NCBI RefSeq assembly: GCF_020906515.1
Contig: NC_085853.1
Span: forward strand, 2,108,001 to 2,172,000
Length of the DNA: 64,000 nucleotides
Source: Vanrija pseudolonga
Lineage: Eukaryota > Basidiomycota > Tremellomycetes > Trichosporonales > Trichosporonaceae
Direction: 5' to 3'
This document shows positions 15,870-36,294 of the stretch, piece after piece (position 1 is the first letter of the stretch; the number at the start of each line of letters is the position of its first letter). The position numbers were made by a program, and so were the translations under genes. The notes below the pieces were generated by a model. It did no database searches. It was not told the origin of the DNA and saw only the letters and a list, made by a program, of their open reading frames with translations.

Positions 15870-16617
15870 CTACAACGTCCCCTCGACGCGGGTCACCGCC
15901 TGGCCATTGAACACCTCCATGCGGTGGGCGCGCACCTCGTCGTCGGCGGTATACGGTGGCGGGATCTCGTTCTTTCCCTTGCCTCCTCCGGTGCTGCTCG
16001 AGCTGGCGCCGGGGCTCGTGGGCGTGGGGCTGAGCTTGCCCTTGTTGGAGTCGGAGCGGCGTGTCCCGCCGACCATGGTGCCCCAGTCGCCCGTCTTGCC
16101 GGGCGAGAGGGACACGCTGGGCCGCAGCGAGTCGGACACGGTGGACAGGCGCGACAGCCGCCTCGAGGCCGGCGAGGGCGGGAGCGCGGTCGACTCGCGC
16201 AGGCGGTAGTCCTCCCTCACCGCGTAGAACGCGGGCGCGAACTGCGCCAGCTGCTTCTCGAGCACGTCGAGCTTGTGCCCCAGCTCGTCGTCCCCCGTCC
16301 CCCGGGAGCGCTTGTACTCGATGTACTTGTCCAGCACGGCGCGGGGATATCTAATAAGTGTGTCAGTAAGGCCGGCTCAGCTGCACGCCGACTCCGACTC
16401 ACGGTCCGTCCGGCGGGCCAGTATACCCGCGTAACAAGCGCACCACGTCCGAGCTGCACTTGGGTATGCAGGGTATCCCGCGCCACGACTTCTTCTGGTG
16501 GTCTGGGTGCGGTGGCGCGACGCCAAACTGCGCCTTGGCGATCTGCTGCCTTTCGTGGATGTTGTGCGCGACGACTGTGAGCGCGCCGATGAGGAGGATC
16601 GACTCGATGATGACCAT
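15870..16617 (-). CDS. YPV/WPP-module family member A (membrane-anchored, PPPY tail)
   Basis: Two exons (16617-16403 and 16350-15870), 231 residues. It opens with a hydrophobic segment, VIIESILLIGALTVVAH. Exon 1 ends DVVRLLRGYTGPPDGP; exon 2 begins YPRAVLDKYIEYKRSRG...KLDVLEKQ and runs straight into LAQFAPAFYAVREDY, so the second family intron is absent. The WPP end of the module is weak. The Ser/Pro tail carries IPPPYTADDE near the C-terminus, the PY motif seen in several relatives. An in-frame ATG at 16719 would add 34 residues before the hydrophobic start. A TATATTAA element on this strand near 16796-16803 lies closer to that ATG, so the start is not settled. Function unknown. Confidence 0.78.
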
Positions 16618-16949
16618 GTCGTTGCGGGCGGGGATGCACAGCTGCTTGCTGCAGGAGGAGCAGGAGGAGGAAGAAACAGGCTGCCAGTGGCGACCGACGC
16701 GGGTTATGAGTGGCGCCACGGGCCGGTCGCGGTGACGTCGTTGCCATCGGCGAGTCCAGACTCGGCACCGCTGCTGCAGCAGCGGCCACGACGCTTAATA
16801 TACAGGATACATACATACGATGGCTCGGCGCCTCCGAGATCAGCGCGTCACGCCGACGTCGTCACTCTGGCCATCGGCGGCGATGATGCTTCCGGGCACT
16901 TACGACCAGCAGCAGCAGAGGCCAAGAGATCTACCACCTGCGCGGCGTC

Positions 16950-17607
16950 CTAATACTGATATGACGCCGCGCGCGCGCGGTGCACGGCGCGCCCGTGGTG
17001 TATGCCAAGATATTGCGCGCGCGCCTCGTCGGCCGGCGTGTACGGCGGCAGCTGGTCCCTGTCTGGCGCGCTGGTCGGCATCAGGCTCGCCAGCGAGCCC
17101 GAGTTGCGGAGTTCTGGCGCGAGCCGTGGTGGCGCGGGCATGGGGGGCTGGAGAACGCGTGATGGTGGCAGGCCGTTCCACTGGCGGACTGTCGAGAACA
17201 CTGCGGCGTAGTGGGGCAGCTGTACCGTCAGCTGATGGTCCCACACCACATCACCCACTGTGGCCTCAAGCACCTCTAACTTCGCGGGCAGGTCGTCCTC
17301 GCTCGTGCCCTTGTGCCGCTTGTACGCGACATACGAGCCGACCACGCACAGGGGGTAGCTGGGAGTGTGAGTGTGTGGTCGGTGGGGGGAGGCGGGCTCA
17401 CTTGCCCACCGGTGGCCCGCGGTACGCGCCGAGGCAGGCCACGACGTCGACTGCCCGCCGCGGGACGAGGGGCACCGACGCGGCCTCGGTCGCGGACATG
17501 TAGTCGAGTGGCGGGCGCACGCCGAAGCGGCGCGCCTCCTCGCTGTGCCGGTGGTGGACGATGGCGCCGACCGCGCCTGCGATGACTAGGGCCTCGAAGA
17601 AGACCAT
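16950..17607 (-). CDS. YPV/WPP-module family member B
   Basis: Exons 17607-17402, 17358-17259 and 17219-16950 give 191 residues. The hydrophobic start is VFFEALVIAGAVGAIVHH. Exon 1 ends with VPRRAVDVVACLGAYRGP, the middle exon is exactly 100 nt (YPLCVVGSYVAYKRHKG...KLEVLEAT), and exon 3 begins LPHYAAVFSTVRQW followed by LPPSRVLQPPMP, a degenerate WPP end. The tail has LPPYTPADEA. The second intron is only 39 nt, a multiple of three with no stop, so retention would simply insert 13 residues (204 in all). I call it an intron because donor, CTGAC branch, acceptor and position match the relatives. Function unknown. Confidence 0.78.
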
Positions 17608-18031
17608 GGGGGTGGTGGGGTGGGAGTGAGGTGGGTGTGTGTACTGTGTCTTGGGGGCAGCTATAAGGTCACCTGTTGGGGGCTGGTTGTTGTCGCAACG
17701 GCGGCGCGGTGGGCATCGCGCGACGACGCGTGGTGGGTGGTGGCGCTGTGGCGGCTTGTGCGACCAGTGGCGCGATCGGCGCGAGGCGAGGCGGAACAAC
17801 GACCCACGCCCGCGTGCGACTATGGCGAGCGCTCTCCGCATCGCATGCAGCACAGCTCGATGCACAAGGCATCGCTTGAGCGCTTGACATCGCTCGACAG
17901 TGCGCACACCGGTGCCATCGCAGTCCGCAGAGCACCGCTACGACATGTGTCGCACCCCACAACGCCAGACGCCAGATCGCGACGTTTCATCCGACAGCCC
18001 GTGCACTCGTAAACTCGTGTCATATACATGT
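17608..18031. other. Intergenic region
   Basis: About 420 bp between member B and the proline-rich gene. A TATAAG sequence at 17662-17667 lies about 55 bp upstream of member B's start. No gene seen. Confidence 0.5.
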
Positions 18032-19295
18032 CTACATTGCTCTTCCCACCCCGGCTTCGACGCCGGTGTCCTGCGGCACACCGTGGCGCTGTGCACTGCC
18101 CCACCCGCTCTCAGACCACCCGGGCGAGCTGCTCTCGTACGCCGAGTAGATCCAGTCCTCTTCAGTCGACTGCGCGGCGGGGGGCAGCGACCAGCGCCAC
18201 GGTGCCGGGGCGTCACCGTGCCCGCTGAAGCTTGGCGGCGGGGACGTGAAGTCGATTATCTCCTGCATCCGCGAGTCGCGTGTCGTCTTGCGGCGCATGA
18301 GGGCGGCACGCGCCTCGGCGCGCGCAGCAGGCGTGTCGGCTGTGCTGCTCTGCTGGTGCTGTCCGAGCCCCATGCCGGCCAGTGCGAGCCCCAGCCCCGC
18401 CACATGCCCGTCAGGATACAGGCTGTGTCTGCTCACGCTGGCGTCGAGCGAATCCGGGTCATGGTCCAGGTCGAGGTCGATGCCGTACTCCAGCAAAAAG
18501 TTGGCCTCATCGCGCCACATGTCCTCGACCTCTTGTAACGAGTAGTCGTGCCCGTCCTCGCTGTCGTCGGGTGGGGCGAGGTCGTCGGGCGCGGTGTGCG
18601 CCTTGGTCTGCTTGGGCAGCGGAAGCGGAGGTGGGGGCGAGTTGGGCGGCGATGCGGCAAGGTAGCCGAGATACTCGGTCTCTGGGCGAAGGCTGGGGGT
18701 GGGGGTTGGCTCTGACCGAGGGGCGGGCCGTGGTGCCGGAGGTAGGGGCGCCGCTGGAAGAGGAGGGGGCGAGTCGGCCAGATACCCTAGATACTCTGTT
18801 TCTGGGCGGGGCGGCCGCGGCGGCGCCGCCCGAGGGAGGGGTGGAGGTGATGGCAGGGGAGGTGGGGATGTGGGGGACACTGGGGGAGAGCCCGCGAGGT
18901 AGCCCAAGTACTCTGTCTCTGGGCGCAGTGGCCGTTCCGGCGGTGTACGATGGGGTGAAAGCGGCGCGGTGGACTTGAACGTGGGTGATGGTGGGAGGAT
19001 TCGCGGAGGGGATAGTGGCGGCGAGGGTTTGATGGCTGGCAGCCCCGGTGGTGGCGGGGCTGATGGGCTGGCGAGCATTGTCTCTGGCCGGTCGTCGGCG
19101 ACGAAAACCGAGGAGCGGAAGTACGACAGTGTGGAACGTCTTGACGGGCTTTGCGAGCTTCTTGACGGGCGCAGCGGCGCGCTTGTAGTGCTCCGGGTTG
19201 GGGGTCCAGTACGGGTACGGCCCGCCTGGTTGCTGCGGCGCCGGGGGCCCCCCAGCGAGCGGCGTGAAGGGCATGCCTGGGTCGTGTTTGCCCAT
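18032..19295 (-). CDS. Proline-rich protein with three ETEYLGYLA repeats
   Basis: The first 64 codons from 19295 (MGKHDPGMPFTPLAGG start, ending near VVLPLLGF) have strong codon bias. The bias then moves to another frame that stays open to a stop at 18032, so an intron is needed between about 19050 and 19110. A 43-nt intron at 19060-19102 keeps frame and gives 406 residues, but its donor is weak and other joints are possible. The body is Pro/Ser-rich with three copies of ETEYLGYLA followed by an SPP element, 39-40 codons apart. An acidic region (EDGHDYSLQEVEDMW) and a Trp-rich C-terminal part follow. It lacks the YPV/WPP module despite lying inside the array. Function unknown. Confidence 0.55.
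18645..18928 (-). repeat. Three in-gene direct repeats encoding ETEYLGYLAxSPP
   Basis: Copies end near 18925, 18808 and 18688, that is 117 and 120 bp apart. Each encodes RPETEYLGYLA, then G, D or A, then SPP. Synonymous differences show they are not recent exact copies. Confidence 0.75.
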
Positions 19296-19582
19296 CTCGT
19301 GTGTGTGTGTGTTGTTGCCGAGTGTGGGGTGTTACGAGTGGCGGATCATGATGTGTCGCTGCATCTACGATGCACACGACAATGACAATGATACTGGGCT
19401 ATGCGATGGCGAGTTGCAAGCCCGTCGTGGTGGTTTGTGAGAAGGAATGAGATGCACGGATCAGAAGGCCCGAGTTGCGCCAAAACGCCACACTGCGACG
19501 CAACCACCCACCACAGCCAGCACCCAGCCCACTCAGCGTCCATCAATCAACACATCTATACAACAATGAATGCAATGTACAA

Positions 19583-20220
19583 CTACTCGCGCGGAATGAC
19601 ACACCGCGTCACGCCCCACAGCTTGACTACGACCGGCGGCGGCGAGCTCGGCGCAGAAGACGACTGCGAAGAGGACGACGACGACAACGTGGGGTCGCTC
19701 TCGTCCCCTCTCAGCTTGGGCCGCGCGCTAACGAGCGCCTGCGCAGCATGCGACCGCCTCCACCACGAGTGGGGCCGCTCCGCCGGCGGCGGCGGTGCGG
19801 CGGCGGGGACAGCAGCAGCGGTCCGTAACCTCGTCGAGCGATGCGTATTGCGCGCCTCGGCAAACTCGCGGGGGTAGCCCGGCAGCTGCATATGCATGTC
19901 AGTGACAGACCGAGACGGGGACCCCTGGCCACCCACCTGCTCCTCGAGGCTGCGCAGCCCGCGCGCAATCTCGCTGTCGGCGTATCCCCACTCGAGCTGG
20001 TGAAGCACCAGCGCGCGGATGACGGGGAGCGCTAGTCTGGGGAGTGTCAGCTTCGGAGCATGCATGGTGCGACTCGGCCCGCTCACTCGCGCGGGGGCTG
20101 CGGCTCGCCGTCGACGGGCTTGAGGATGCACAGCACGTCCTGCGTGCTGTAGATTGCCAGTGTGGTGCCGTAGCGCGCTGGGGTGCCGGCGACGCGGGTG
20201 CTGGGGCAGACGCCGTTCAT
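19583..20220 (-). CDS. YPV/WPP-module family member D (divergent)
   Basis: Exons 20220-20087, 20036-19937 and 19885-19583 encode 178 residues, with introns of 50 and 51 nt. The middle exon is again 100 nt. Exon 1 ends in QDVLCILKPVDGEPQPPRE; the middle exon reads LALPVIRALVLHQLEWG...LRSLEEQ; exon 3 starts LPGYPREFAEARN. The LGPS/WPP segment is missing, replaced by a Ser/Pro/Ala-rich tail containing an acidic DESDP patch and a Ser run. There is no hydrophobic start and no PPPY. Membership rests on exon phases, the 100-nt exon and residual motif matches, which together are unlikely by chance. Function unknown. Confidence 0.7.
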
Positions 20221-20632
20221 GGGGGAGTGGACAGTGTCAAGCTGCGATGAGATGCGTTCTCCTCTGAAGAAGAAGCCTCCAAGGACACGGCGGCGGCGGC
20301 GGAGAACAATGGCTTGCTACTGCCCGCCTCATCGCCTCGGCGCAATGCTTCGCGATCTCGATGGCCCGGTGACCACCGCTCGGCCACGGCAAGACACGGC
20401 AACAAGCGCTGCCTATGATGCAGGTACCCCCATTCCGCGCGCTCGTACTCTGTGTTACATCTTGTCTGTGTGTCTGGGGTCTGCTTGCTTCTACTGTACA
20501 ACTTTGCTGCCTGGCCGCCTGCCCGCCTCGTTGCGTGGCCGTGCCGTGCCGTGCTGCCTGCCACATTTACAACAGTCGTCATTGCCTCGCCCTGGATCAC
20601 TCAATCTGCCCACATCCTTTACACCACCCTCC
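20221..20632. other. Intergenic region between members D and E
   Basis: About 410 bp, no supported gene; it probably holds the promoter of D and the 3' end of E. Confidence 0.45.
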
Positions 20633-21331
20633 CTAGAACAACAGCGGCGCACGCTCGTCAAACGGCGTGTATGGAGGGGGCGGCTCGGTCCCCTTGATCT
20701 GTCTGCTCATGCGCGTCGCAGCGTTCATGACGACACGGTCGAACCGGTGCGCGGCGGGCGGCGGCCACGGGATAGGAAGGGCCTTGGACGGCCCCAGCGC
20801 TGTAAAGTAGCGCACAATGTTGAAGGCTGCAGCGTAGAGCGGGAACTGGGGGTGGTGGAGCTGTCAGCGCACGCACGCGCGCACGGCACGGCACGGCACA
20901 GCATGCATGCATGCTTGCATTACGACTCACCTCGCGCTCCAGAACCTCGAGCTTGCGCGCGATGACTGCCGTCTTGCGCCCGCGTGTAATCTTGTTGACG
21001 ACGTAGGCCCGTATGACGGACACTGGGAATCTGGACCATGGCGTGAGCCACGACTCCAGCCAGTGACAGCCAGCTCAACTCACTCATGCAAAGGTGGGCC
21101 AGAGTAGACGCGCAAGCACACCCGCACATTGCTGGCCGAGCGCACAAACAGGCCGTCTTGGCTCTCGTCGCGCTTGACGGCGCTCGAGGCGCGGCGTAAC
21201 CTTGGCCGGCGCGGGGTTGGGTGGGCAGTGACAAGCTCAAACCCCTCCGAGAGCCACTCGCCGCTGCCTGGCCGATCGGGGTGGTCTGGCAGCGGCCCGA
21301 CCGACATGTCTGTGTTTGTTCGGAAGATCAT
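20633..21331 (-). CDS. YPV/WPP-module family member E (short, PPPY at C-terminus)
   Basis: Exons 21331-21084, 21030-20931 and 20845-20633 give 186 residues; the middle exon is 100 nt. Exon 1 ends SNVRVCLRVYSGPPLHE, the middle exon reads FPVSVIRAYVVNKITRG...KLEVLERE, and exon 3 reads FPLYAAAFNIVRYF then LGPSKALPIPWPPP. It ends PPPPYTPFDERAPLLF, so the PY motif is nearly terminal, and the last residues (DERAPLL) also resemble an acidic dileucine sorting signal. This is a compact member with little tail, useful for defining the core. A TATAA-type element lies about 45 bp upstream, near 21378. No clear membrane segment in exon 1. Function unknown. Confidence 0.8.
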
Positions 21332-21730
21332 GGCGGTGAGGGGGATGGTGCGCGGTGCATGGCCCTTCGCAGTTGTCTATAAGTGGTGCTGCTGGGGGTG
21401 ATGGATGCGGAGTCAGCAGCAGCAGCAAATGCCAACGGCGACGGAGACCTCGTCGCCGCCCCCGCCTAGTCGCCCCGTTCGTCACGCGACAACCAGCGAC
21501 GAGAAGCGATGATGACTGCAATGCATACCGCTGAGAGCCATCGTGACTTGGTGACTGCTGCTTCTACACACTCGTTACATGCACTATCCACGCTCGCTCG
21601 ATCCACGCACGCTCACCACCACCACCACCGAATCACATGGGCGCAGACGTCGGCCGAGTCACACGCCCTGCCCCGCCCTTCGGCGTCGTCGTCGTCGTTG
21701 TCGTCGGTGGTGCCGCTGCTTCGCGCCTTC
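21332..21730. other. Intergenic region between members E and F
   Basis: About 400 bp, with CAC-type short repeats near 21610-21630; no gene seen. Confidence 0.45.
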
Positions 21731-23038
21731 TCACAGGAAGGCAGTCGCAGGCCGGGGCCCAATTGACACTGGATGCTCGCGCTCGACAATATCGTCGGTT
21801 GTGTACGCCCGCTCTCCCTCGAGCGTTGGCGAGCGCGGAAAGTCAAACAGCCCGTCAAGTGACAGATCCGGGAGGCGCACGCTCAGCTGCGGAGGATAAC
21901 TTCCGCCCACGGGCGTCGACACTGGCGTCGCCGTCGTCCCGCCCGGGAACGACAGCGACAGGGAGCGGAGCGACGGCGTGCCCATGCCGATGTTGATCGA
22001 CATGCCGAACGTGTCCTCTTGTGTCGGCGTCGTCGCGGTGGTCGGGGTCGCGTCGACCGAGTGCGGCGTGGGGTAGAAGAGCATGTCGGCCGTGTGCGGG
22101 GTCGACGAGGCGGGGGACACGGCGTCGGGGGACGCCAACGACGACGGCGCTCTCCTGCGCGTCGTGACGACCGTGGGGCGGGTCGGCGGTGGCGGCGAAA
22201 GCGGCGCGGGTGGCGCGGACGGGGCGCGCGCAACGATGGGGTAGTACTCGCTCAGTGATGACCTCGGGGGGAGGTGGAGGCTCGAGAAGCCTGCGGGCCG
22301 GTTGGTGCCGCCCGCCGCGCCAGCCGCCTTGAGGGCCGAGAGGCTGCGCGTGCGGGGCCTGAGCGCGCCGAACAGTGCGGCGGCGACGGTGCTCCGGCGT
22401 GTAGGCGGGCGAATGGCCACCAGGTTCATGGTCACGCGGGCGGCGTCGACAATGTCCTGGTCGAGGTGGGCGAGGTCGGGCGGCCACGCGGGGCTGCTCT
22501 CGAGCGCCGCGCCGCCCCCGGCGGACCCCGTGCCGAGGTTGTTGAAGTAGCGCACGAGAACAAACGCGGTGGCGAACTGGGGCAGCTGGCCCTCGAGCCC
22601 CTCGAGCTTGTAGCTGATTTCGGCGGGCGTGCGGCCCTTGAGGAGCTTGTGCTCGACGTAGGAGCGGATGACGGTGACGGGGTATCTGGGGGCTCAGCAC
22701 GCTGGTGGCTGGCTTGCAGGCTGCCGTACGCACCTCGACACCACCGGCCCGGGGTACAGCTGCAGCGTGGTGATTGCGTCTTTAGAGGTGCGGATGGCCT
22801 TGGACGGGAACGCGAGGGACGAGGACGACTCGAAGCGCATGGCTGTGATCGACGGCGCAGGCGGCTGCACCCACGAGCGGAACGACCGCACAGAGCGGGC
22901 TGACGGGCGGCGCGAGAGCAGCGGCGCCTGGGGCGGGCGTAGCTGGAGCTCCGATGCCCCGAACGGCGAGGGCGAGGGTGGCGCGAGGGATACGCTGGCT
23001 GTGAGGGATGAGAATCCTCCGACGGTGGATACGAGCAT
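21731..23038 (-). CDS. YPV/WPP-module family member F (long tail)
   Basis: Two exons (23038-22734 and 22685-21731) encode 419 residues. Exon 1 ends SKDAITTLQLYPGPVVSR. Exon 2 starts YPVTVIRSYVEHKLLKG...KLEGLEGQ and continues without interruption into LPQFATAFVLVRYFNNLG, so the second family intron is missing exactly where its relatives have it. The LGPS/WPP end is modified, with a Gly/Ala-rich insert before SPAWPP. The remaining 280 residues are Ser/Thr/Pro-rich and probably disordered, with an acidic/hydrophobic stretch (LSLDGLFDFPRSP) near the C-terminus. No PPPY. Function unknown. Confidence 0.78.
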
Positions 23039-23311
23039 TGTGTTGGGGTGTTAGACGAGAAGAGTGAGCAAGACGGTGAGAAGCAAGCAGCAAGCAACGA
23101 GCGGCATCGCACGGCGGCGCACGCGCGGCGCGCGGTCCCCGCCGGCTCAGGCTGCTGATACAGCTACCCCGCGTGCGGTCTGCGCACTGACGCGGTGACC
23201 GTGCTGAACGTAGCTTCGCGCGCGGGGCTGGGTGATGCATTCTACAGTGTACAGCGCGGTGCGGTGCGGTGCGTGTCTAACAGCAATGTATGTGGTAGTG
23301 CCACATGCAAC

Positions 23312-24281
23312 CTAGTGGTCGTCGAGACGGTGGAAGGCGCGCGGGCGCGGCGTCTGCGGCGGCGTCGCGAGCGGCTTGGGCGGCTGCAGCACCGGTGGCG
23401 CGGGGGTCAGCGTATCCGACGACGGCGAGGTTGATGGTGGCTTGGGCCCTGTTGCCGCTGTCGCTGTTGTTGTCGGGGCAGGCGCGGCGCGCACTCTGCT
23501 CGTGGCGCCGCCGCCGCCACCGCGCCGCCGATCGCCCCTGCCTCTTGCCTGGCCCGTAAACACTGCTCTCTCCTCGTGCGACTCAGCGCCGCGTCCGCCG
23601 CGTCCCCCCCACTCGACCACCCACCCCGCCCCCAGGCCCCCAGTCGGCTCCAGCCCCGCTGCTGTGGCTCATGTGCACATGTGTCGACAGGCGACTCGCC
23701 GCCGCGACGGCCGCCTCTGCCGCCGCCGAGTCGTCAAACACGGGGGGAAAGTCCATGTCAATGACGTGCGAGGGCCCCAGCCCTTTGAAGAACCTGACGG
23801 CGGCGAAGGACCGAGCGAACTGGGGCAGCTGGGTGTTAGTAGTTCGGACAAACTGTCGCCACCCACCTCCGCCTCGAGAATTTCAAGCTTGCGCGCAATG
23901 TCGCCTGGCTTGCGGCCGCGCACGAGCTTGTGGTCGACATACGAACGGATCACGGACACGGGGTATCTGGGAGGGGGTGTGAGCGGGTTGGTCGTCTCGG
24001 GGGGTAGGGGGGCCGACGCACTCGGCGAATACGGGCCCGCGGTACAGCTTGAGGCAGAGGGCTGCGTCGGACGCGGTGCGCACGACACGCGGAGCGAGCC
24101 GCGCCGCGAGCGGGTCCATGTCGTCCCGGCTCAGCCTGGGCGAGGGGGGCAGCGGGTCGGGGTCGGGGGGCGGGGCGATTGCGCGGCGGCGGCGCAGCGC
24201 CTGGGTTTTTGCCCATGCTGCCGAGAGCGTGTTGGTCGCGAGCGACGCGGTGGCCACGGCCAGTGCGGTGCCTGTGAACAT
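23312..24281 (-). CDS. YPV/WPP-module family member G
   Basis: Exons 24281-24022, 23966-23867 (100 nt) and from 23828. It has an Ala-rich hydrophobic start (FTGTALAVATASLATNTL), exon 1 end SDAALCLKLYRGPVFAE, middle exon YPVSVIRSYVDHKLVRG...KLEILEAE, then LPQFARSFAAVRFF and LGPSHVIDMDFPP, a near-consensus module. The third exon's frame meets a stop near 23577, but another frame with strong Pro/Thr-rich codon bias stays open to 23312. A further intron is likely: 23549-23624 (266 residues) or 23563-23620 (272 residues). I cannot choose between them; without it the protein has about 199 residues. Function unknown. Confidence 0.72.
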
Positions 24282-24308
24282 GCCTGTCGCTGCGGTCGAG
24301 AGGTACTC

Positions 24309-24470
24309 CTAGTCGAAGAGGGCGAGGAGGGTGGCGAGCGGTGTCGGGAGGTTGAGGCGGTCGAGGATTGGCAGTGCGGCGAGCAGGATGCGCAGGGTCG
24401 AGATATGGGCGAGCTGCGTGAGGACGTGGGCCGACTCGAGTGACAGTGCCGCTGTTGGGCGTGCAGCCAT
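24309..24470 (-). CDS. Possible 53-residue hydrophobic protein
   Basis: A short frame with strong GC-biased wobble positions encodes 53 residues (MAARPTAALSLESAHVL start, Leu-rich helix LLAALPILDRL, end LLALFD). It lies between members G and I on the same strand. An in-frame ATG at 24638 would double the length but without codon bias. It may be a real small gene, a leftover exon of the family, or chance. No match recognised. Confidence 0.35.
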   Translation of the reverse strand: MAARPTAALSLESAHVLTQLAHISTLRILLAALPILDRLNLPTPLATLLALFD

Positions 24471-24640
24471 GATGTGTAGAGAGAGACGAGCAAGGGGCGC
24501 GGCCGGGTTTGGAGGGAGCTGTTCACAAGAGTACAGCAGGGGCGGAGGCCGTGCTCCCCCGCATTGCATTGTGGGGGGCGAGTGAGAATGTGACAGCGGG
24601 AGGCAGGCGGACACAGATGCATATACACACACAAACACTA

Positions 24641-26207
24641 CTACAACGCGGCATTGTACGAGTCGCGCAGGAGGGGCTCGGAGCGCCGTCGTCGCACGGC
24701 CAGAAACTCAGAGTAACGGAGCGCGTCGGCGGGCGAGTAGGCCGGCGGCGCGTCGACCTCCATTTCTACCTGGTACGCATAGTACTGGCGCGGCTGGGCG
24801 GGGGCAGCGAGCGCGACGGCCGTCGCCTGGGCCGATGCCGCCCATTCCTGGCCCCGCTCGCGCTGGTCCCAGCGGGGCGAGTCGTGGCGGAACGGAAAAC
24901 CGCCGACGCGCGGCGTCGTGGGGCTCGCCGGTGCCGAGTGGGACGGCGTGGCGAGCGGCGTGCCCCACGGCGTGATGCCCGGCGTGAACGGCAGCGGGAG
25001 GGGGCGGAGGCGCGGCGAGTCGGGGATGGCGATAGGCAGCGGGGCTGACGGCCTGCGCGCGCGGCCGTTCGGTGGCGGGGTCGCGCTGCTGCCGGGGAAG
25101 AGGACGCTCGCGCGCTGCTGCTGTGGCAGCGCGAGGCGCTGGGGCGTCGGCGTCGCGAGCACCTCTGGCGCCTGGTGTTCCGCCCACGGGGGCTGCCGCG
25201 CGCCGGGGATGAGGTGCGCACTCTGGCTGCGCGTGTGTGCGAACGGGCGGGGCGGGGGGAAGAGGGTGTTGGTGGGGGCGAAGGTTTGTTGCACGGGGGA
25301 CGGGCGCGCCGAGGGCGCCGGTGTGCGGTGGAAGCCGTGGTCTAGGCCTAGGAGGCGGGGCTTGAGCTCGAACGAGGCCGAGGACGTGCGGCTGCGCGGC
25401 GCGATGACGAGCGACGCGATCGACGAGGTGCGGCTGCGTGGCGGCGGCGGCGCGAAGGACGCGATCGAGGAGGTGCGGCTGCGGGGCAGCGGCGGGTGGA
25501 ACGACGCTGCCGACGACGTGCGCGCGCGTTCGCGGTCGCGGTCGGTCGACCGCCGCGCCTCCTTGCGCTCGCTGCCTGGGAAGGTCATGATCCTAGCCAC
25601 GTCGAGCAAGGGGTCCGCGTCGTCGAGCACCGGCGGCCATTCGGTGTCGAGCACGCCGCTCGGGCCCAGCCCGCGAAAATACCGCACTGTGTTGAACGCG
25701 CGCGCATACTCTGGCACCTGGGCGTGAGCCGCCGCCGCAAGGTTGTGAACTTACCTCCGCCTCGACATTGTCGAGCTTGAGGCTGATCTCGCCCGGCTTG
25801 CGCCCGCGCACAATCTTCTGGTCGACATAGGAGCGGATCACGCGGAGGGGGTACCTGGGTGCGCGTGAGCATGTGAGACGAGGTACAGGGGAAAAATGCA
25901 AGCTCGGAGTTGTCAACGGCGCTCGGACTCGCTCGCTCGACGCGATCGATCGAACTACTTGCCCGCCGCCAAACCACCACACTCACTCAGCATACCGCGG
26001 CCCGCGGTACATCTGCAGCGCGGTCACGGCGTCGGCGGCCGTCTTGGCCACGCGGTGGGTCCATGCGCGTGGGTCGTCGTACTCGCCTCCGTCGTCGAGG
26101 TCGGTGTTGAGCGGTGGGAGGGTGTTTGACGGGCCTGCAAAGTGTGGAAGTGGCTGTGGATGGGAGTGCGGCGTTGTGCTGCCGCCGAGGCCGAGCGCGC
26201 CGAGCAT
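24641..26207 (-). CDS. YPV/WPP-module family member I (long tail, PPAY motif)
   Basis: Exons 26207-25987, 25854-25755 (100 nt) and 25717-24641 give 465 residues; introns are 132 and 37 nt. Exon 1 ends ADAVTALQMYRGPRYAE; the middle exon reads YPLRVIRSYVDQKIVRG...KLDNVEAE; exon 3 starts VPEYARAFNTVRYF and LGPSGVLDTEWPP. A basic Ser/Arg-rich region with three RSRTSS-type repeats follows (about 25390-25510 in the DNA), then a Pro-rich tail ending with APPAYSPADALRYSEF. There is no hydrophobic start from the chosen ATG. An in-frame ATG at 26384 would extend it, but that stretch lacks codon bias. Function unknown. Confidence 0.8.
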
Positions 26208-26786: not shown

Positions 26787-27630
26787 ATGGGCTATGCGCT
26801 CTATACGACCAACTACCGCGTCCGCTCCAACCGCAGCTCGCACACCCGCCAGCCGTCGCTCACAGCAGCGAGCTACCGCCGCCGCCAGCGTGCCGACGAA
26901 CAAAACATGAGAGGGTGGGGGTGGGCGGCTGCTGTCGCCGAGGCTTTCCGCAATAGCTACGCGGAGAGCGTGTACCCGTTCCTCGGGACCGACGAGCGCG
27001 CCCTCTTCGCCGTGAGCAGCGCGCGCGCTGGCGGCATGCTGGCGCCCACCAGTGCACGCGTGCCGACGTTCATCAAGACGCGCAAAGACGCCCTCCGCTG
27101 CCTGCGCGCGTTCACCGGCCCAAAGTTCCACGCGTGAGCCGGGCCGAACGGCAAATGCTAATCTTAGATACCCCGCGCTCGTGGTCCTCTCGTATGTGGA
27201 CATCAAGATCCGTGCGGGCAAGAGCAAGGCGGGTGTGAGAGCCAAGCTGGAGCGGATTGAGCTCGAGGTGGGTGTCGGTGGGTGGGGAGGGGGTTGTGCG
27301 GAGTGGGGGGGAGAGGGGAAGGCAGGGGGTGGTCCTGCCAGCGGGCGGTTACAGGGCGAGCAGCGAGCAGGAGCGTGCAGCGCGCGCGTGCACAGTCGCT
27401 AACCCCCCACCCAGATCCCCGCCTACTGGCAGGTCTACGGCATGGTGCGCGACCTCCGCCGCCTCGGCCCAAGCAGCAAGCTCGACGTGCCCTGGCCGCC
27501 GCGGTACAACGAGCAGTCCGAGGCGGCGGGCGCCGCGCGCGAGTTCCACCCGCTTGATCGCCGCCAGCCGAGCATCAGGAGACGCGACTACATGTGGTGG
27601 GAGACGAGGGAGGGGTGGGAGATGATTTAG
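26787..27630 (+). CDS. YPV/WPP-module family member J
   Basis: Plus-strand exons 26787-27133, 27168-27267 (100 nt) and 27415-27630 encode 220 residues. The first intron is only 34 nt, with a CTAAT branch; the second is 147 nt. Exon 1 is basic (RRRQR) and ends KDALRCLRAFTGPKFHA; the middle exon reads YPALVVLSYVDIKIRAG...KLERIELE; exon 3 starts IPAYWQVYGMVRDL and LGPSSKLDVPWPP. The tail is short and rich in aromatic and charged residues (DYMWWETREGWEMI), with no PPPY. It is the first member on the plus strand, so the array contains inversions. Function unknown. Confidence 0.8.
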
Positions 27631-27903
27631 GCGGTGTGTGGTGTGGGGAGGAGGTGACGAGACGACACTGCGCTGGTCGCTGTTGCTAGTAATGACTTTG
27701 ACGACGATCCTTCATGTCACTAGATGGTGGTTGAGACGCGCGGCGGTGTGCCAGTGTGGATGCGCACGACGGGGCGCGGGGCGTAGTGGGGAGGCGTGTC
27801 GATTCGCTACCCCTCGTCGACATCAACAAAGTTGCGCGTTCAACTCGTCGAGGTGCAACTCCAAAAGTAATGCATGGATACCACCCAAAAAGCAACCGCC
27901 TGT

Positions 27904-27988
27904 AGGTCCGACTGGGATTCGAACCCAGGTAGTTCGGAAGTTGAAATCCTTCAAAACCGAAAGTCGTAACCGGCTGGACCATCGGACC
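27904..27988 (-). tRNA. tRNA-Gln (TTG) with about 12-nt intron
   Basis: Minus-strand cloverleaf: acceptor GGTCCGA pairs with TCGGACC, D-stem GTC/GAC, anticodon stem TTCGG/CCGAA, T-arm CTGGG-TTCGAAT-CCCAG. The loop reads TTTTGA, giving anticodon TTG. The 12 extra bases after position 37 are the intron. It lies inside the gene family array between members J and K. Confidence 0.9.
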
Positions 27989-28151
27989 ATTGGGCCATGC
28001 GCCCATCGGGCTATGGACGGCCGAAAATTTCGGGCGCAATGGGCATATAAACTCGCCGGGTGCCTGAGCGGCATACTGATCATCCACCCCGCCTTTCATA
28101 TGTACGTCCATAGATGCCATATCACACTCTATGCAGATGGCTCTCTCGCTA

Positions 28152-29225
28152 CTAGTCAAACGGCGCGAGGATCCCCCTCGCCCAGCGACTCATGTGCCGG
28201 CGCTCACTCGTCGCCTCCCACCGCTCGCGGTCCTGCGAGCTGTACGCGGGCGGCGGCGCAAGGTCGACGACCACATGCCGCTCCGGCGCGATGAGCGACG
28301 CGCTGCGCGCATGGGCCGGCGCCGACGCAAGCGGGAAGGTGATGGTCGCTGCGCGCCGGTGGTACCCGTGGCGCGGGGGTGCGGCCTCGATGCGCGGCTC
28401 TGGCGCTGGCGGCGGGGTGGTCGGCGACACGGGCGACTCGAGGGCGTCCGCTTCGTCCGGGGACGTGGAGGGCAGCGCGGCTTGGAGGGTCATGGTGGCG
28501 GTTGTGCGTCGGCCCAGGCTGCGCGAGCGGCGGCGCGTCGACACTGGCGGGTGCGGTGTCTCGTCGCGGCGCGGACTCCGCGGCGAGCCGGGCTGCTGCT
28601 CGTCGTCACCCGCGCCGACCCGCACGCCCAGGTGTAGTACCGGCGCAGCGGCGCTCACTGTCCTTGCCGAGTCGATCGCGCGCGTGTCCCCGAACGAAGG
28701 GATGCTGCCTGGCACTACGGGCGGCCAGGGCATCGGCAGGACGTGGCTTGGCCCAAAGCCGCGGAAGAAGCGCACCGTCGCGAACGCGCGCGCGTAGCGG
28801 GGGTGCTGGTGGCGGAGTCGGCGTCAGCGACCTCGGTGGATCCAACTGGGCGTGGCGTACGCACCCCCGCCTCAAGCGACTCCAACTTGCGCAGGATATC
28901 GCCCATCTTGCGCCCCTTGATGATCTTGTGGTCGACATAGGAGCGGATCACGGACACGGGGTATCTAGGCGTGTCAGCGTTCTACGCCGCGACCGCGACG
29001 CACTCACTCGGCGAATGGCTCCCCGGCATATAGCAACAAGCACACATTCACGTCCTGCGCCTTGCGCACCACAGCAGGGAGGTGGGGCACGACGCGCGGG
29101 TCGATGTCGTACTCGTATTCGCGCTGGTACTGCTGGGTAGCGCTCGCGTTGGCCGCCAAGCTGGAGATGGCGACCGCGACCGCCGCCCCCGCCGCCGCGG
29201 AGGTGATCGCCACCGTCGAGAGCAT
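28152..29225 (-). CDS. YPV/WPP-module family member K (membrane start, PPAY tail)
   Basis: Exons 29225-29008, 28964-28865 (100 nt) and 28805-28152 encode 323 residues. The N-terminus is a hydrophobic Ala-rich segment (VAITSAAAGAAVAVAISSLAA). Exon 1 ends AQDVNVCLLLYAGEPFAE; the middle exon reads YPVSVIRSYVDHKIIKG...KLESLEAG; exon 3 starts HPRYARAFATVRFF and GFGPSHVLPMPWPP, close to the family consensus. A Pro/Ser/Arg-rich tail holds APPPAYSSQDRERW before a basic end. It is most similar by eye to G and I, suggesting recent duplications within the array. Function unknown. Confidence 0.82.
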
Positions 29226-29809
29226 GATAGTGTGGTGGCAAGACCGAGGCCCATCTTGCACAGAAGGGTGAAAGATGCGGAGGGGGGCGGGCCGAGCGCC
29301 AGAGAGCGGCTTTGCGCCGGAGGGGGTGTGGCGGCCGCTCGTCGCTGCCACTTGCGCCGACACTACCTCGGCGACGGAGACGAACCCCGTCTCCGTGTCC
29401 GCCCCGAGGCCGTCGTGCCCGCAGAGTTTGTACCAGATCCCCGCTGGACAAGTCGAAAATAGCCACATTGTCGACGTCGGATGGGTGGCGACCAGTGTGG
29501 GGCCCCCACGCTGCGTCATTGTCGCGAGAAACCTGAACACCGCATTTTGATTGCTCTCTCCGACTTTTGAATTGATCTTTCGTTTACTTTCTCTTGATCT
29601 CTCTTACTCTCTAACTCTTTCTCTGTCTTGCTCGGAGGGCTGTGAGTTGCCTTCGGAACCAACAATCCGTCTCCGCCTGCCCCGACGTCCTTCCCACAAC
29701 CCCACCACATCCCTTCTCGACACGCTAGCTCCCTTCGGCACCTCCGAGCACGGAAGACCCACGACATCGTTCCACTATCTAGACCCGACCACACCAACCT
29801 CCCCGCCCC
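29226..29809. other. Divergent intergenic region between members K and L
   Basis: About 580 bp, including a T/C-rich stretch (about 29560-29640) before member L. Divergent promoters are likely. No gene supported. Confidence 0.5.
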
Positions 29810-30876
29810 ATGGTCCTCATCGCTGCAATCCTCATCGGCGTGGCCGCAGGCTACGTCGCGCACAAGGCCGGCAAGGGCGACAATGAGAAGTACGGCGTCC
29901 AGCCGCCCAAGGGCCAGATGCGCTCCAAGGACGTCCCGCTGGTGCCGAGGCGCGCACAGGACGTCCAGCGCTGCTTGTCACAGTACAAGGGGCCCATACC
30001 TGCCGAGTGAGTAGGCTGTGTTGAACCAACCGCTGGGGTGTGTTGTTGCCCGCTGGCGGAGCAGACACCGGTGGTGGCGCGCCATGCACCGCTCTCTGCC
30101 AAGTACTCACACCCATTCCAGATACCCTACCCAGGTGCTCCGGATGTACGTCTCGTACAAGCTCGCAAACGGCGCGACTCCAGAGTATATCCCTACCAAG
30201 CTTGAGGCCCTTGAGCAAGCAGTAAGCAGCCAGCGTTGAGCCACGCTCACACACACAGCTGCCCAAATATGCCCCGTGTTTTGCGATCGTCCGCTTCGAG
30301 CTTGGCCTTGGCCCCTCGCGCGTGATCAAGATGGACTGGCCTCCAGCAGGTGCCCGTCCTCCGCCCCCTCTCTCATCTCTCCCCCCTCCACCATACCACG
30401 TCCGGGAGGCGAGCGACTCCAAGCGATCAATGGACAAGTACGACGAGCCAGTCAGGCGATCCGGCTTCGGAGGAGGGGCACCCGCGTACCAGCCCATGCC
30501 GACGCGCCGTCCCCCGGCGTCCGACGTTCTCACGGAGCGCGGGAGCTCAGACTACCAGACCAACCCGTTCTTGGACGAACGGCGCGACGAGTCGACATAC
30601 AACTCGGCAGCGTCGTCGGGCTTCCTATCGCCTGTGGTGACCGGCGCACCGCCGCTCCCCGCGCGCAGGGGAACGGCGGGTACAGCCCCGGGGTCGCCTG
30701 GAGGGTACCGCCCCCCACCACCACTCCCGCCGCGCTCGCCAACGCTCCCCACCGAGCGTATGCCACAGGCTGGCGAGCCAGTGGACGCGCCCCCTCCATA
30801 CTCTCGTAACGACGAGTTCAAGACCGAGACGCTCAACCTCCCCCGGCCTGACGGAGGCCGCGGGGGTGAGATTTAA
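29810..30876 (+). CDS. YPV/WPP-module family member L (membrane start, two PPPY-type motifs)
   Basis: Exons 29810-30006, 30122-30221 (100 nt) and 30259-30876 encode 304 residues. It begins VLIAAILIGVAAGYVAHKAG, a clear hydrophobic segment resembling members A and B, followed by PLVPRRAQDVQRCLSQYKGP, very like B. The middle exon reads YPTQVLRMYVSYKLANG...KLEALEQA; exon 3 starts LPKYAPCFAIVRFE and LGPSRVIKMDWPP. The tail contains PPPPYHV soon after the module and APPPYSRNDEFKTE near the end. A likely single-pass protein with a disordered tail; topology is inferred. Function unknown. Confidence 0.82.
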
Positions 30877-31518
30877 CAGAAACGACTAAGACTCGAACGG
30901 CCCTATGCCCCCTGTTCCAGATCCACTCTACACACGAACACCCACCATAGTACCATAGCATAATAGTTGTCAGAGCTAGATGTAGCCATCATGAGCATTG
31001 TGCTGTTGTTACTGTCGTCGCAGGTACATGTGCATGTGTCTGTCTGGGAGGCTTGGCCAGGCGTTGGTCGTGGCGTCGCGTGGCGTCAAAGAGCGGTGGT
31101 GTGTCTAGTCGAGATCGACCCCCGCGCCGCGGCAAATGCCGTTGTTGCACGCTATCAGGGTGGGTGGACAAGCGACGCGATGCATGCAACAGCCTTTGTT
31201 CTCTCTCTACATGTGCTGCTGCTCGACGACCGACACAACGACGGCGACGACGACGAGGCTGTAGTTGGTAGGTGTCGTTGCAGTGCGCGCTCGCCCAGGT
31301 CGCATTGCCATGTCGGCGCACTGGCCGCTCTCCTCGACAACGACAACGACCACCACCGCCGCCCTCGACACACAACGACGCACCAACCCCTCAACATCTC
31401 CTTCTTGTTCTTCTTCTTCTTCAGCAGCAGCAGAGGCAGCTTGGACGCCGCCGTCGCGCCCTTCTCATCATCACACTCCACACACCACCATCACTCGCCC
31501 TCGCCGCCGCCGGGTAGC
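30877..31518. other. Intergenic region upstream of member M
   Basis: About 640 bp. A frame open from 30967 is in phase with member M, but it lacks codon bias and reads through low-complexity TTC/CAC runs, so it is not used as the start. Confidence 0.5.
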
Positions 31519-34349
31519 ATGATACCACACGGCGCCGCGGCAGCGCCAGCCCCTCCACGGCCGCCATCAGGCGAGAGGGCGGTGCGCACGCCGTTCACAT
31601 CTCCACCGCCGCCCTCAGTGACCCAAGAGGGCAAACAACTACTAACCACAAGCTCGCTCAACTTTCGGCGCCGCATCCTCCGACAGTACTCGGTCGCCCC
31701 GCCGCCAGAATACTTTGACTCCGAGCGCCTCGTCTGGCTGCCCCACTTTGCGCGCGACCTCGCCGACCTGGTCCTCTGCCTCGAGGGGTACAGCGGACCG
31801 AGCGATGCGGCGTGAGTACCCGTCCCCGCAGGCAGGGGAAGCCCAGCTCACGCACGCAGGTACCTCGAGTCTGCGATAAGCAGCTACATTCAGTGGGCGG
31901 CGTTCGTCAAGAAGATCCAGGTCAACTCGTCCGAACTGGCCGAGGAGCTCGACTTTATCCGCCGCCTGGTATGTGGCACAGAGGCAGGGCGAGCTGACGC
32001 TAGTTTCCGCGGTTCACAAAGGCGGTCGTCGCCGTCGCGCGCGACCAGGACATCACCCTCCCGCCGCCAGTGCCAGAGACGATGGGGTCGCTGTTAAAGC
32101 TGCCAGAGCTCGAGGACGCCGTGGCGCTCCAGCTTCCCTGGCGCGGGGCGACGGCGACGCCCGCCAATAGTCCAAGGCTCGAGCCGCCGCCGCCGCCAAC
32201 TCCGAGGACGCCGCGGACAGAGACGCCGCCCACGACGCCGGCCGAGTCGACCTTCTCGTCGCCCACGTCGCGCTCGTTCGAGCCCCCTCGCCCAGCTACG
32301 CCCCAGCAGCGCCAGGATCGCCCGTCAACCCCGCAGAGGCCGTACCACCCCCTGCCGCACCCGCCGATCACGACCAGCCCGCGTGCACTCCCTCCCCACC
32401 CCCCGCTCGCGGTGCCCGACAGCGACAGCCCCCGCTCGATCCCGCCACCGCTCAGCCCGAACCCCAATAGCCCGAAGCATAGCCACACGCCCAGCCCCCG
32501 GCCGGTGCAGCCTGCTCTCACACCAAGCCCCAGGCCACAGCCACCGGTCCTTGCGCCGAACCCAAGGCCACCTCAGCCGCCGGTGCCGACACCCAGCCCT
32601 CGGCCGCCGCAACAGCCGGTACAGGCGCCGAGCCCTAGGCCGCCCCAGCAAGCACCAGCACCAGCACCGGTGCCGAGCCCTTATCCATCCCAGAACGCAA
32701 CCAGCCTCCGCCACAAGACGTCGCACAATGAACTTGCCCAGCAGCAGCTCCAGCTGTCATTCCCGATGCCAAGCACGAAGCAGCCCCAGCTGCAGCAGAA
32801 GTCGTCACAGCATTTCAGAGTCGCCGAGCTTGCACATCAGCTGGCACCGCCGGCCCAGTGCGCCGAAGACAGGCCACCCACACCGCCACCAAAAGGCAAT
32901 CCGCGGTTCATGGCTGACAGCGAGCCACGGGCGTCCTTCTACGGCCAGCAACAGCAGCAGCACCCACCAATGACATACTACAATCCCGGAACCAACCCTG
33001 CCCAGCCATCCAACACGGCCAGCTCTTCCAACAACAGACAGAACAGGCCACAGCCAACCGTGGCGACCAACTCGAACCCGAACCAGTGGCAACAGGACCG
33101 GAGGCAGCAGCCATACCGCCCGTCCAAGCTCGTCATTCCGTCGCCCCTCGGCCCTCTTCATACCGAAAACCCCGATTGGAAGACCAGCTACGATTCCAAC
33201 TGGGAGGGTCGTCTTGCGTCGGACAGCGGCTGGCCTAGGAACGTCCCACCCGGCGCTTCGAGCATCGTGCCAACGCCCGTCACGGCCCGCGCGCCTCTCG
33301 CACCCAACACCCCGGCACCCCGCCCAAGCTCCGACTATGAGACAGTGCGACTGCGTGCGAATGTCAACCCAGAGCTACTGGCTGACCGCCCTCTATCCCA
33401 CCCCTCGAACTTACAGAGGCGAGGCGCGCAGCATCAAGGAGGAATCGTAGCTCGTCGTCCATCAACCAAACCGAAGCGCACTGTGTCAGTCCGGCGTGGC
33501 GGCAGTCGCCCGAGCCCGGCCAACGGGGCACCTGGCGCAGCCACGCCCCTCGCGACGTACCCTTCCCGTCACCCACAGCGGCGGGGGACAGCAGAGAGCA
33601 CGAGTACCGAGTTTGCCACGCAGCTCGCGCGCGCAACGTACCCTGCTGCCGGTCAAGGGCGACAAGAGATCATGTCTGACGGCCCAGAGCAGGATTTCTC
33701 CGAGTTTGGCGCCCTGGGCGACCCGTATAGTCGCCAGCGGCAACCCCAGCAGCGTGAGTATGAGCCCCAGCCTCGCGGGCCACCATTCTACGAGAACGGG
33801 GCGACGAACAAACCCAACCCACCTCCGACTCGGCGGCGTGAGCCGTCGTGGGTGTCGATCGACTCTGAGGAGGAGCTACGGCCCCAGGTCCGCCCCGGGC
33901 CTGAATCCCCATACTCGCCCGTCCATCGCCCCGCACCGAACCATACGCCGTCGTCGCTCCCATGGGACAGGTCTAAGCGTCCCACCTCGGCGGCGTCGTG
34001 GGTGACGGTCGACTCGGTGGCCTCGGGCGGCGTGGCGAGCCGCTCTCCCCCGATTCCGGGCCGTGCCCCCGAGCCGTGGCGCGACCACACGCACACGTCG
34101 AGTCAGGACTGGATCCCCCAGCCCCAGCGTGCCCGTCCCATCTCGCGCCACTCGATGGACCAGGTCCCCACTGCTCAGGTGGCCGCCTCGGGCTCGGGCC
34201 GTAGAGAGTCCGAGCCCGCTGCCCTGCCGATCGGGTTCCGTCAGCAGCCACTGGTGCGCCGTGACGAGCCGAATGCAAGGCTCAGACGCGACCTGTCCAT
34301 CGACAGCACCATCTCCCTCCCTCCCCCTCCGCCACCTTACGGAACATGA
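31519..34349 (+). CDS. YPV/WPP-module family member M (915 residues, divergent module)
   Basis: Exons 31519-31811, 31860-31968 and 32004-34349; introns 48 and 35 nt. Exon 1 ends LADLVLCLEGYSGPSDAA. The middle exon is 109 nt rather than 100 and reads YLESAISSYIQWAAF...LDFIRRL; exon 3 begins FPRFTKAVVAVARD. The intron phases are those of the family, though the motif is the most diverged and lacks WPP. The rest, nearly 800 residues, is disordered. It has five approximate 11-12-residue units around PSPRPPQ (about 32487-32660), Gln/Asn-rich runs, Ser-Trp-Val-acidic repeats (SWVSIDSEEE, SWVTVDS), and the extreme C-terminus PPPPPPYGT. Function unknown. Confidence 0.75.
32487..32660 (+). repeat. Coding tandem repeat of PSPRPxxP units
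   Basis: About five imperfect units of 33-36 bp encode T/A-P-S-P-R-P followed by Pro/Gln-rich residues, inside the tail of member M. Confidence 0.6.
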
Positions 34350-34439
34350 CGACCCTTCACGAGCCATTTGTACTTTACCACATATGCACATATTCACTTG
34401 AGTCATGTAACACACTATACACACTATGGATACAGTCTA

Positions 34440-36294
34440 CTACGCAAAGATGCTCGGCGGCCAGTTCATCTTCAACACGGGCGACGGGCCGAGGTAGTAC
34501 ACGTAGCGTACAATCGCAAACGCCTGCACGTAATCTGGGAGCTGGGGGGCGGTCAGCTTGCGACCAGAGCGCGCGACGTACCTGTTTCTCCAAGTACGTC
34601 AATCTCCTGCCCCATTCTTCCCAAGCGCCGCCTTCGCGGTGGGCGATCCACTGGAGATGCGTCGAGAACACGGTGGCCGGGAACCTTGGGTCAAACGTCA
34701 GCCACGCCTGATAGGCAACTCACTGGCTCTCAAACGGCCCCTCGTAGGCGTTCAGACAGTCGATCACGTCCTCTGGCGTCCGGAGCACGAGCGGCTCGCC
34801 CACGCGATACCGGTAGTCGGCGTCCTCGCGCACGGGGTAGCATGAGAAGAAGGTGTCCCGCTGGGTGGGGCGGAAGCGTGGCGGCCAGTCCATCTGCAGC
34901 ACGGTCGACTTGGGGAGCGAGTGCACGTAGCGGACTATCATGAAGGCGTCGGCGTAGTCTGGGGCCTGGGCCGGTGAGCACTGAGCTGAGCGCAGGAGGT
35001 GTTGACAGCTCCGTACGCACCTGTGACTCCAACACGTCAAACTTCGCTGACAGGTCGCGCCACCGGGTGCCGTTTCGATGGATCTCATAGTCGGCGTAAG
35101 TGCGCAGCACCACCACTGGGTACCTAGGGGTCGGTCAGTTGGAGGCGGGGCGGAAATCAGACCCACTGGTCGTCTTTCATGCCGTTGAAGGCCTCCAAGC
35201 AGCGCAGCACGGCCTCGGGGGTCTGAAGCATTGGAGGAGGCTGCGACTCGAACAGCTTGTCGACAAAGCCGATGGGCGTGGTGACTCTGAAAAAGTTGTC
35301 CGAGGCGCGTACTTGCTCTTCTCCCGCTTGGCTGCCTGCTGTCGACCTTGAATGTGAAGAATATGGAGGCCAATCGAACGGGAGAACGGCCGACGCTGTA
35401 ATGTAGCGTACGAAGCGCACTTGGGCAAACGCCGCTGCGTACTCTGGAAGCTGGCCCTGTTAGACCAACCACGGTCAGTGGCATCTCTTCCTCACCTGAC
35501 GCTCCAGGACTTCAAGCATCCCGTTCCACTCGCTCCATGGGGCAAGGTTCCGGTGGATCTCGTACTCCAAGTACACGGCGATGACGGCGACAGGGTATCT
35601 GGTCCCTCAGTTCTGTGACATGGGGCATCTACCCACTGTACGTTGGAGCCCCTGTAAGTCTTGAGCAGCGCCACAACGTCCTCGGGGGTACGGATCACGG
35701 GCGGGTCCCCGTTCTGTGCCCAAGCTGGGGGGTTCACCCTATAGAACAGGTCGGGCTGGGTGGCGACGGGCACGGGGGCGGGATACGCGGCCGCGGCGGC
35801 CGCACGCACGGGGTCGGGCGACTGATGCGAGAGCGTGCTCGCGATCGACTGTGGGCGCGGGGCGGGCGACGACGAATAGTAGCGCGGCACAGGGACGGGC
35901 GGGGACTTTGGGCGCGGCGTCGTGCTTGCTGATGGGGCGGGGCGGCGGCCGACGTTTGGAAGGCGGTACACCCATCTGACGGCTGCAAAGCTCTGCGCGT
36001 ATCGCGGCGGCGCCTGGGGGTTGTTACTAGGTGGCAGAGCGTGCGGCACCTACCCGCCCCTCCAAGGCATCCATGAGCTCGCCAATCTCCTGCTCGCTGG
36101 TCCCTTCGGCCCGCTTGTCGTCGACATAGTCTCGGATCACGCCGACCGGGTATCTGCGGGTGGTGGGTGTGTCAGGAGCGATCAGCTCTGCGCACATACT
36201 CGCTGAAATCTGCCCCGTGGTACGAGGTCAGCGTCCACAACACCTCGGCAAACCCCGGGTGATTGGGCGCTGGCGTGCCCGGCATGCGCGACAT
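34440..36294 (-). CDS. YPV/WPP-module family member N with four tandem modules
   Basis: Nine exons (36294-36200, 36153-36054, 36013-35637, 35598-35496, 35450-35167, 35123-35021, 34965-34724, 34684-34582, 34541-34440) encode 502 residues with frame kept throughout. Middle exons are 100, 103, 103 and 103 nt, opening YPVGVIRDYVDD, YPVAVIAVYLEY, YPVVVLRTYADY and FPATVFSTHLQW. Each is followed by an exon starting PPRYAQSF, LPEYAAAF, APDYADAF or LPDYVQAF; these continue, where a further module follows, into the next TPEDVxxLLxxYxG motif. The last module is close to consensus (LGPSPVLKMNWPP) and the protein stops four residues later. The acceptor of exon 5 could also be six bases earlier. No membrane segment or PPPY. 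Its existence shows the module is a unit that duplicates inside genes as well as between them. Confidence 0.82.

Follow-up and report, generated by a model that had tools for sequence, protein, structure and literature searches.

A Vanrija gene family with an unnamed module and PPxY-bearing tails: possible partners of an Rsp5-type ubiquitin ligase

We analysed a window of 64,000 nucleotides from Vanrija pseudolonga (contig C5, positions 2108001-2172000; the assembly comprises 24.9 Mb in nine contigs, and C5 appears from the locus tags to be chromosome 5). Twelve genes at positions 15870-36294 of this window belong to a large family, seen so far only in Vanrija, whose members carry a module of about 90 residues, followed in most of them by a proline-rich, probably disordered tail. 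Judged on sequence alone, and with a probability of roughly 55%, we read the family as putative Rsp5-binding proteins that act as adaptors or self-targeting clients in the sorting and turnover of membrane proteins. The PPxY hallmark of the tails and the far larger extent of the family are new here; the functional kind, a PY-bearing Rsp5 partner, is already known. If the tails bind Rsp5, the family constitutes an undescribed set of possible ubiquitin-ligase partners, nearly all found copies of which lie at one chromosome end. Such a set would presumably be larger than the PY-adaptor sets of budding yeast. It would also be a natural experiment in the origin and diversification of ligase partners, and the twelve window genes would become a directly testable hypothesis whose handle is one short motif.

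A first-pass annotation of this DNA had described a tandem array of paralogues with common intron positions in both orientations. All twelve of its listed places hold members, each of which splices into an open reading frame with GT-AG introns. One gene, N, contains four modules, and the 12 genes on both strands thus hold 15 module copies. The gene models confirmed the common intron positions. All 15 modules have intron 1, in phase 2, directly 5' of the Y/F-P block; intron 2, in phase 0, is present in 13 of 15 and absent from A and F. The module reads, in order, D-V-x-x-C-L-x-x-Y-x-G-P, Y-P-x-x-V-I-R-x-Y-V-x-x-K-x-x-x-G, K-L-E-x-L-E, P-x-Y-A-x-A-F-x-x-V-R, L-G-P-S and, often, W-P-P. Of 31 further modules outside the window, 23 have a phase-2 acceptor close to the block and 19 have a phase-0 donor (14/15 and 13/15 in the window by the same test). 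This test allowed a slack of a few codons and had no control; hence, some of the outside matches are due to chance.

The tails behind the module are mostly proline-rich and mutually dissimilar, as had been noted before. They are not simply divergent, since they share PPxY far above chance. Of 54 tails, 20 contain PPxY, whereas residue shuffling of the same tails gives a mean of 2.4 (maximum of 7 in 2000 simulations); for PPxY or LPxY, the numbers are 23 observed and 3.4 expected. An open enumeration of patterns ranked PP.Y first (19 of 49 tails, 2.3 expected, z 11). This enumeration covered patterns with three fixed residues, a span of at most five and presence in at least 8 of the 49 tails; the two residues following the module were dropped, and tails shorter than 12 residues were left out. 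In A, B, E, H, J, and K, the pattern [LP]PxY[ST]xxD occurs in six of six tails, 15-35 residues from the C-terminus. Overall, [LP]PxY is found in 8 of the 12 window genes, counting the LPPY of B and the PPRY at the module end of I. Loci L040-L044 were picked by module similarity before their tails were read, and PPxY follows five of their six modules in the same or an adjoining frame (none in L042). One of them (L040, C1:2145200-2147600, minus strand), chosen on module similarity alone, carries PPPPY near its end.

A candidate reader of this motif is encoded in the same genome. A 720-residue frame scores 119 bits for three WW domains and 327 bits for HECT by Pfam. On the basis of its three WW domains and HECT domain, this frame is assigned to the Rsp5 (Nedd4) type of ligase. 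Of 226 fungal RSP5 sequences in one study, 207 are reported to have C2, three WW, and HECT domains (PMC5913265).

An N-terminal hydrophobic stretch (mean Kyte-Doolittle value above 1.6; 1.77-2.00) was found in A, B, J, and K, which combine it with a C-terminal PY motif. Nowhere else in the twelve members does the best 19-residue window exceed 1.6 (F, 1.37; G, 1.15). These four members are predicted to be membrane-anchored. Basic residues follow the stretch in A, B, and K; taken with the positive-inside rule, this suggests that the tail is cytosolic. In the mechanism that we propose, a disordered tail on the cytosolic side would dock the WW domains of the genome's Rsp5 ligase through its PY motif, and the module would offer a second binding face for another protein, as an adaptor does. 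Different partners would then reach a single ubiquitin ligase, partly at membranes. The recurring part would be the docking motif and the varied part the module, which suits a set of adaptors or clients with different partners.

Several observations weigh against this proposal. [LP]PxY is absent from the tails of D, F, G, and N, four of the 12 window members; among all 54 tails, 34 lack PPxY, some of them being shortened by unresolved introns. A membrane anchor is supported by hydropathy alone and in a minority of members. The genome yields ten WW matches, nine of them over the Pfam cut-off; of these nine, the Rsp5 frame accounts for just three. Since PPxY is short and WW matches occur outside that frame, other readers of the motif are possible. 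The lysine-poor composition of the tails (26 K, 215 R), considered as a sign of adaptors, was rejected: an unrelated gene at 18032-19345 has the same ratio.

The same motif and anchor data would also be produced by proteins that are themselves Rsp5 substrates or endosomal passengers, in which PPxY routes the members and the module does something else. This account is conceivable, and we rate it as unlikely. A study of Sna3p, a budding-yeast membrane protein that binds Rsp5 WW domains through a C-terminal cytosolic PPAY, treats the protein as such a passenger and leaves an adaptor role open (PMC2171029). About fifty varied module copies placed before a recurring docking motif would suit partner recognition more than a housekeeping passenger. 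As a membrane protein with a C-terminal PPAY, Sna3p offers the closest worked-out parallel to A, B, J, and K, which combine a hydrophobic stretch with a PY motif at the C-terminus. In these four, however, the stretch lies at the N-terminus, ahead of a new module; the family has dozens of copies and no Pfam match. Wider likenesses to our adaptor or client reading are offered by the alpha-arrestins (ARTs), Bul1/2, Bsd2, and Tre1/2, in which several paralogues with a PY motif are served by an Rsp5-type ligase. In contrast to these, the window family has a different, small module with no Pfam match over the cut-off in the 12 members, has nearly all its found copies at one contig end, and gave no hit outside Vanrija that carries an organism name when three protein searches were run.

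The module had been called unrecognised, and the library searches agree. Pfam gave zero matches for full-length G, K, and J at E <= 1, for full-length A, B, D, E, F, H, and N at E <= 0.1, and for two pieces of L; for I (P0001), a single match was listed at E 0.06, far under the cut-off. When 15 and 28 modules were scanned against Pfam, isolated weak matches appeared in single members (best E 0.0025, in one member of 28). NCBIfam gave zero matches for K, the sole member tried. The best E values in the PDB sequence library were 0.43 for the 15-module profile and 0.47 for the 28-module profile. In PHROGs, the 28 modules gave isolated matches in single members to three families with no known function (best E 0.0081). 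Arrestin domains were not matched in the Pfam scans of the 12 members, nor in those of the 15 and 28 modules, and the wtf family was not matched in the scans of the 12 members. In titles and the starts of abstracts, no paper on a Vanrija module family was found, nor was one found in the excerpted text of two Trichosporonales genome papers (PMC12820176, PMC7026411). The module is thus without a credible Pfam, NCBIfam, or PDB match, and the domain is unnamed in the libraries searched.

One of the weak matches touches the TEA domain (TEAD/AbaA). That the module is a divergent nucleic-acid-binding helix-turn-helix related to this domain, with PPxY recruiting a WW co-regulator, we regard as very improbable. 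One of the 28 modules matched TEA at 18.5 bits, a search with TEA in the own genome returned the same place at 19.2 bits, and hhalign of the module profile against a TEAD fragment aligned this same pair of helices, with a probability of 7% and an E of 0.005 for a single comparison. The resemblance is local, is confined to one helix pair in one member, and was not seen at E <= 1 in the other 27 modules. Against the TEA exon of the genome itself, hhalign aligned two columns only, and the N-terminal hydrophobic stretches of four window members also speak against such a protein. TEA-domain membership was rejected, the single weak match of 18.5 bits being under the Pfam cut-off of 25.1. Hydrophobic periodicity was tried as evidence of helices; the result was mixed and was left unused.

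The earlier observation of a multiplied module was right, and it understated the extent of the family. Rather than a closed 20-kb array, 49 modules scoring above the best control (16.7 bits) were found in about 300 kb of C5, 15 inside the window and 34 outside, and further copies lie on C1 and C4. The scan used exon profiles built from the 15 window modules and covered C5 2108001-2402000 minus 99 bases, together with small tiles at 2585 and 2633 kb. Of the five controls, four were block-shuffled and one was reversed; none of them gave a module at 20 bits or more, a level reached by 44 modules in the scan. The window modules score 97 to 158 bits, and against at most 16.7 in the controls, chance is excluded for this set. 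Since the profile was derived from these 15, independent support comes from the 34 outside modules that beat every control. In whole-genome searches with single modules, nearly all matches, among them a place at C5:2550k, fell at 2.12-2.64 Mb of the 2.72-Mb C5. Matches off C5 were C1:2146k (E 6.8e-6), C4:2937k (E 0.016; module 15.3 bits), and two weak places on C3. The count is a lower bound, because the part from 2402 to 2725 kb was sampled at some loci and the single-module searches score best candidates only. In a separate observation, C5:2175k-2191k (L013, L018), to the right of the window, forms a second dense cluster with about ten module copies, most of which have no PPxY in the frame read.

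A midpoint-rooted FastTree phylogeny of 42 rows, in which one module appears twice, did not recover the window set as a clade. The group of E, F, G, H, and J has a support of 0.82 and is the only supported local clade inside the array; among the N modules, only N2 and N4 form a group of their own with support above 0.8. Local multiplication, as first proposed, is supported as an outcome; a local clade that spans the array is not.

As to lineage specificity, three protein searches of a 5.8-billion set (E 0.01 twice, E 1 once) returned Vanrija proteins and proteins of contigs without an organism name, and no named relatives outside Vanrija. In the first of these, the alignment included the tails, and scoring was limited to the 7999 candidates with the most words in common, probably owing to proline-rich words. 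Distant relatives in other Trichosporonales are possible, because the search requires shared five-residue words. Clear V. albida counterparts exist for K, J, I, and G. The C-terminal PPxY of K and J is kept in V. albida while the surrounding tails differ, and the first PPxY of K is not. The PPRY at the module end of I is kept in its counterpart P0003; the counterpart of G (P0008) has no PPxY.

A large clustered family of dissimilar members with PY motifs, seen in one genus only, could also be a selfish or self/non-self system, either an allorecognition set or one in which Rsp5 routes proteins to the vacuole as in the wtf poison-antidote meiotic drivers. The wtf proteins are multi-pass in the membrane. 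By comparison, one hydrophobic N-terminal segment was found in 4 of the 12 window members, and no segment above 1.6 in the rest. Further, the family lacks a Pfam match, and four members (K, J, I, and G) have clear counterparts in V. albida. We consider such a system quite improbable. The wtf killers of fission yeast are nevertheless the nearest example of a fast-evolving PY family: their antidotes are reported to have PY motifs recognised by Rsp5/NEDD4 ligases, and the genes to evolve rapidly (PMC11642804), and the Vanrija genes likewise form a varied, one-lineage family with PY motifs that may be read by an Rsp5-type ligase. Unlike wtf, the window family has no multi-pass membrane body and no Pfam match, and it is known here from sequence alone. 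Neither Sna3p nor wtf appears to be related to the window family by sequence, as far as tested. Returning to Rsp5-binding adaptors or clients, a bolder form of that reading is rather unlikely and may be stated as speculation: this yeast lineage may hold a private, diversifying set of Rsp5 receptors with an undescribed domain, multiplied to at least about fifty copies at one end of a chromosome. Such a set would serve as a programmable repertoire for degradation or sorting, perhaps under a conflict of the self/non-self or drive kind.

In three divergent copies, the module and PPxY are combined with a part resembling the von Willebrand factor type A (VWA) domain. The likeness to VWA-domain proteins ends there, the window members having no VWA match. 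L041 (C4:2936600-2938900, minus strand) contains the module, PPPAY, and a VWA domain in one frame (Pfam VWA 24.3 bits, cut-off 23.8). The copy at C5:2207-2209k (L014:5215-7536, minus strand) has the module end, PPPPPY, and VWA in one frame at 21.6 bits, under the cut-off. In the copy at C5:2204-2205k, which carries PPHY, the VWA-like part is not seen by Pfam and matches that of the C5:2207-2209k copy (BLASTP E 6e-19). Module, PPxY, and VWA together may be an older arrangement from which the short array members were derived, with L041 as a candidate ancestral form. Helices resembling the ubiquitin-interacting motif (UIM) in the C5:2207-2209k copy were noticed by eye only and were rejected; Pfam lists no UIM match.

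The gene models and the tail motifs of the array are given in Table 1.

Table 1. Array members and tail motifs, in window coordinates.
Feature	Position	Strand	Length (aa)	Exons	Description
Member A	16617-15870	-	231	16617-16403, 16350-15870	N-terminal hydrophobic helix (predicted), module, PPPY tail
Member B	17607-16950	-	191	17607-17402, 17358-17259, 17219-16950	N-terminal hydrophobic helix (predicted), module, LPPY tail
Member D	20220-19583	-	178	20220-20087, 20036-19937, 19885-19583	Divergent module, no PPxY
Member E	21331-20633	-	186	21331-21084, 21030-20931, 20845-20633	Module, short PPPPY tail
Member F	23038-21731	-	419	23038-22734, 22685-21731	Module, long tail without PPxY
Member G	24281 to 23583 or 23312	-			Module; both ends uncertain; no PPxY in either frame
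Member H	26207-24641	-	465	26207-25987, 25854-25755, 25717-24641	Module, long PPAY tail
Member I	26787-27630	+	220	26787-27133, 27168-27267, 27415-27630	Module, short tail; PPRY at module end
Member J	29225-28152	-	323	29225-29008, 28964-28865, 28805-28152	N-terminal hydrophobic helix (predicted), module, PPPAY tail
Member K	29810-30876	+	304	29810-30006, 30122-30221, 30259-30876	N-terminal hydrophobic helix (predicted), module, two PPxY in tail
Member L	31519-34349	+	915	31519-31811, 31860-31968, 32004-34349	Divergent module, 756-residue proline-rich tail ending PPPPY
Member N	36294-34440	-	502		Single gene, four modules, eight introns; no tail motif
PPxY of A	15951-15962	-			PPPYTADDE
LPxY of B	17040-17051	-			LPPYTPADE
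PPxY of E	20669-20680	-			PPPPYTPFDE
PPxY of H	24737-24748	-			APPAYSPADA
PPxY of J	28242-28253	-			PPPAYSSQDR
C-terminal PPxY of K	30790-30801	+			DAPPPYSRNDE
PPxY at C-terminus of L	34329-34340	+			PPPPY

Two of the twelve window genes were seen deposited as 'uncharacterized protein'. The model of I is identical to the deposited LOC62_05G007517 (P0001), despite an intron 1 of just 34 bases. The deposited model of N (LOC62_05G007521; P0009, 346 aa) skips exons that were read here as module 2 and the end of module 4. The sequence of N reads as four complete modules in a row; the intron-1 acceptor in the fourth is AAG, a less certain splice choice. For G, the simple model stops at 23583, and an alternative frame stops at 23312, the end given in the first-pass annotation. 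The latter is favoured because the tail of the V. albida counterpart P0008 resembles that frame. An N-terminal extension of G that is open in P0008 and in P0010 is broken here by a TAG at 24309-24311 (minus strand); G may start downstream of this codon, or it may be decaying.

With regard to the flanks, the BRX1 gene proposed on the right was verified by a Pfam Brix match, whereas the gene on the left, described as zinc-cluster-like, gave no Pfam match at E <= 0.01. A non-member gene also lies inside the array at 18032-19345 (minus strand). It is a proline-rich frame with three near-identical PETEYLGYLAxSPP repeats and no Pfam match at E <= 1. A tRNA-Lys gene is located between I and J at 27904-27988 (minus strand).

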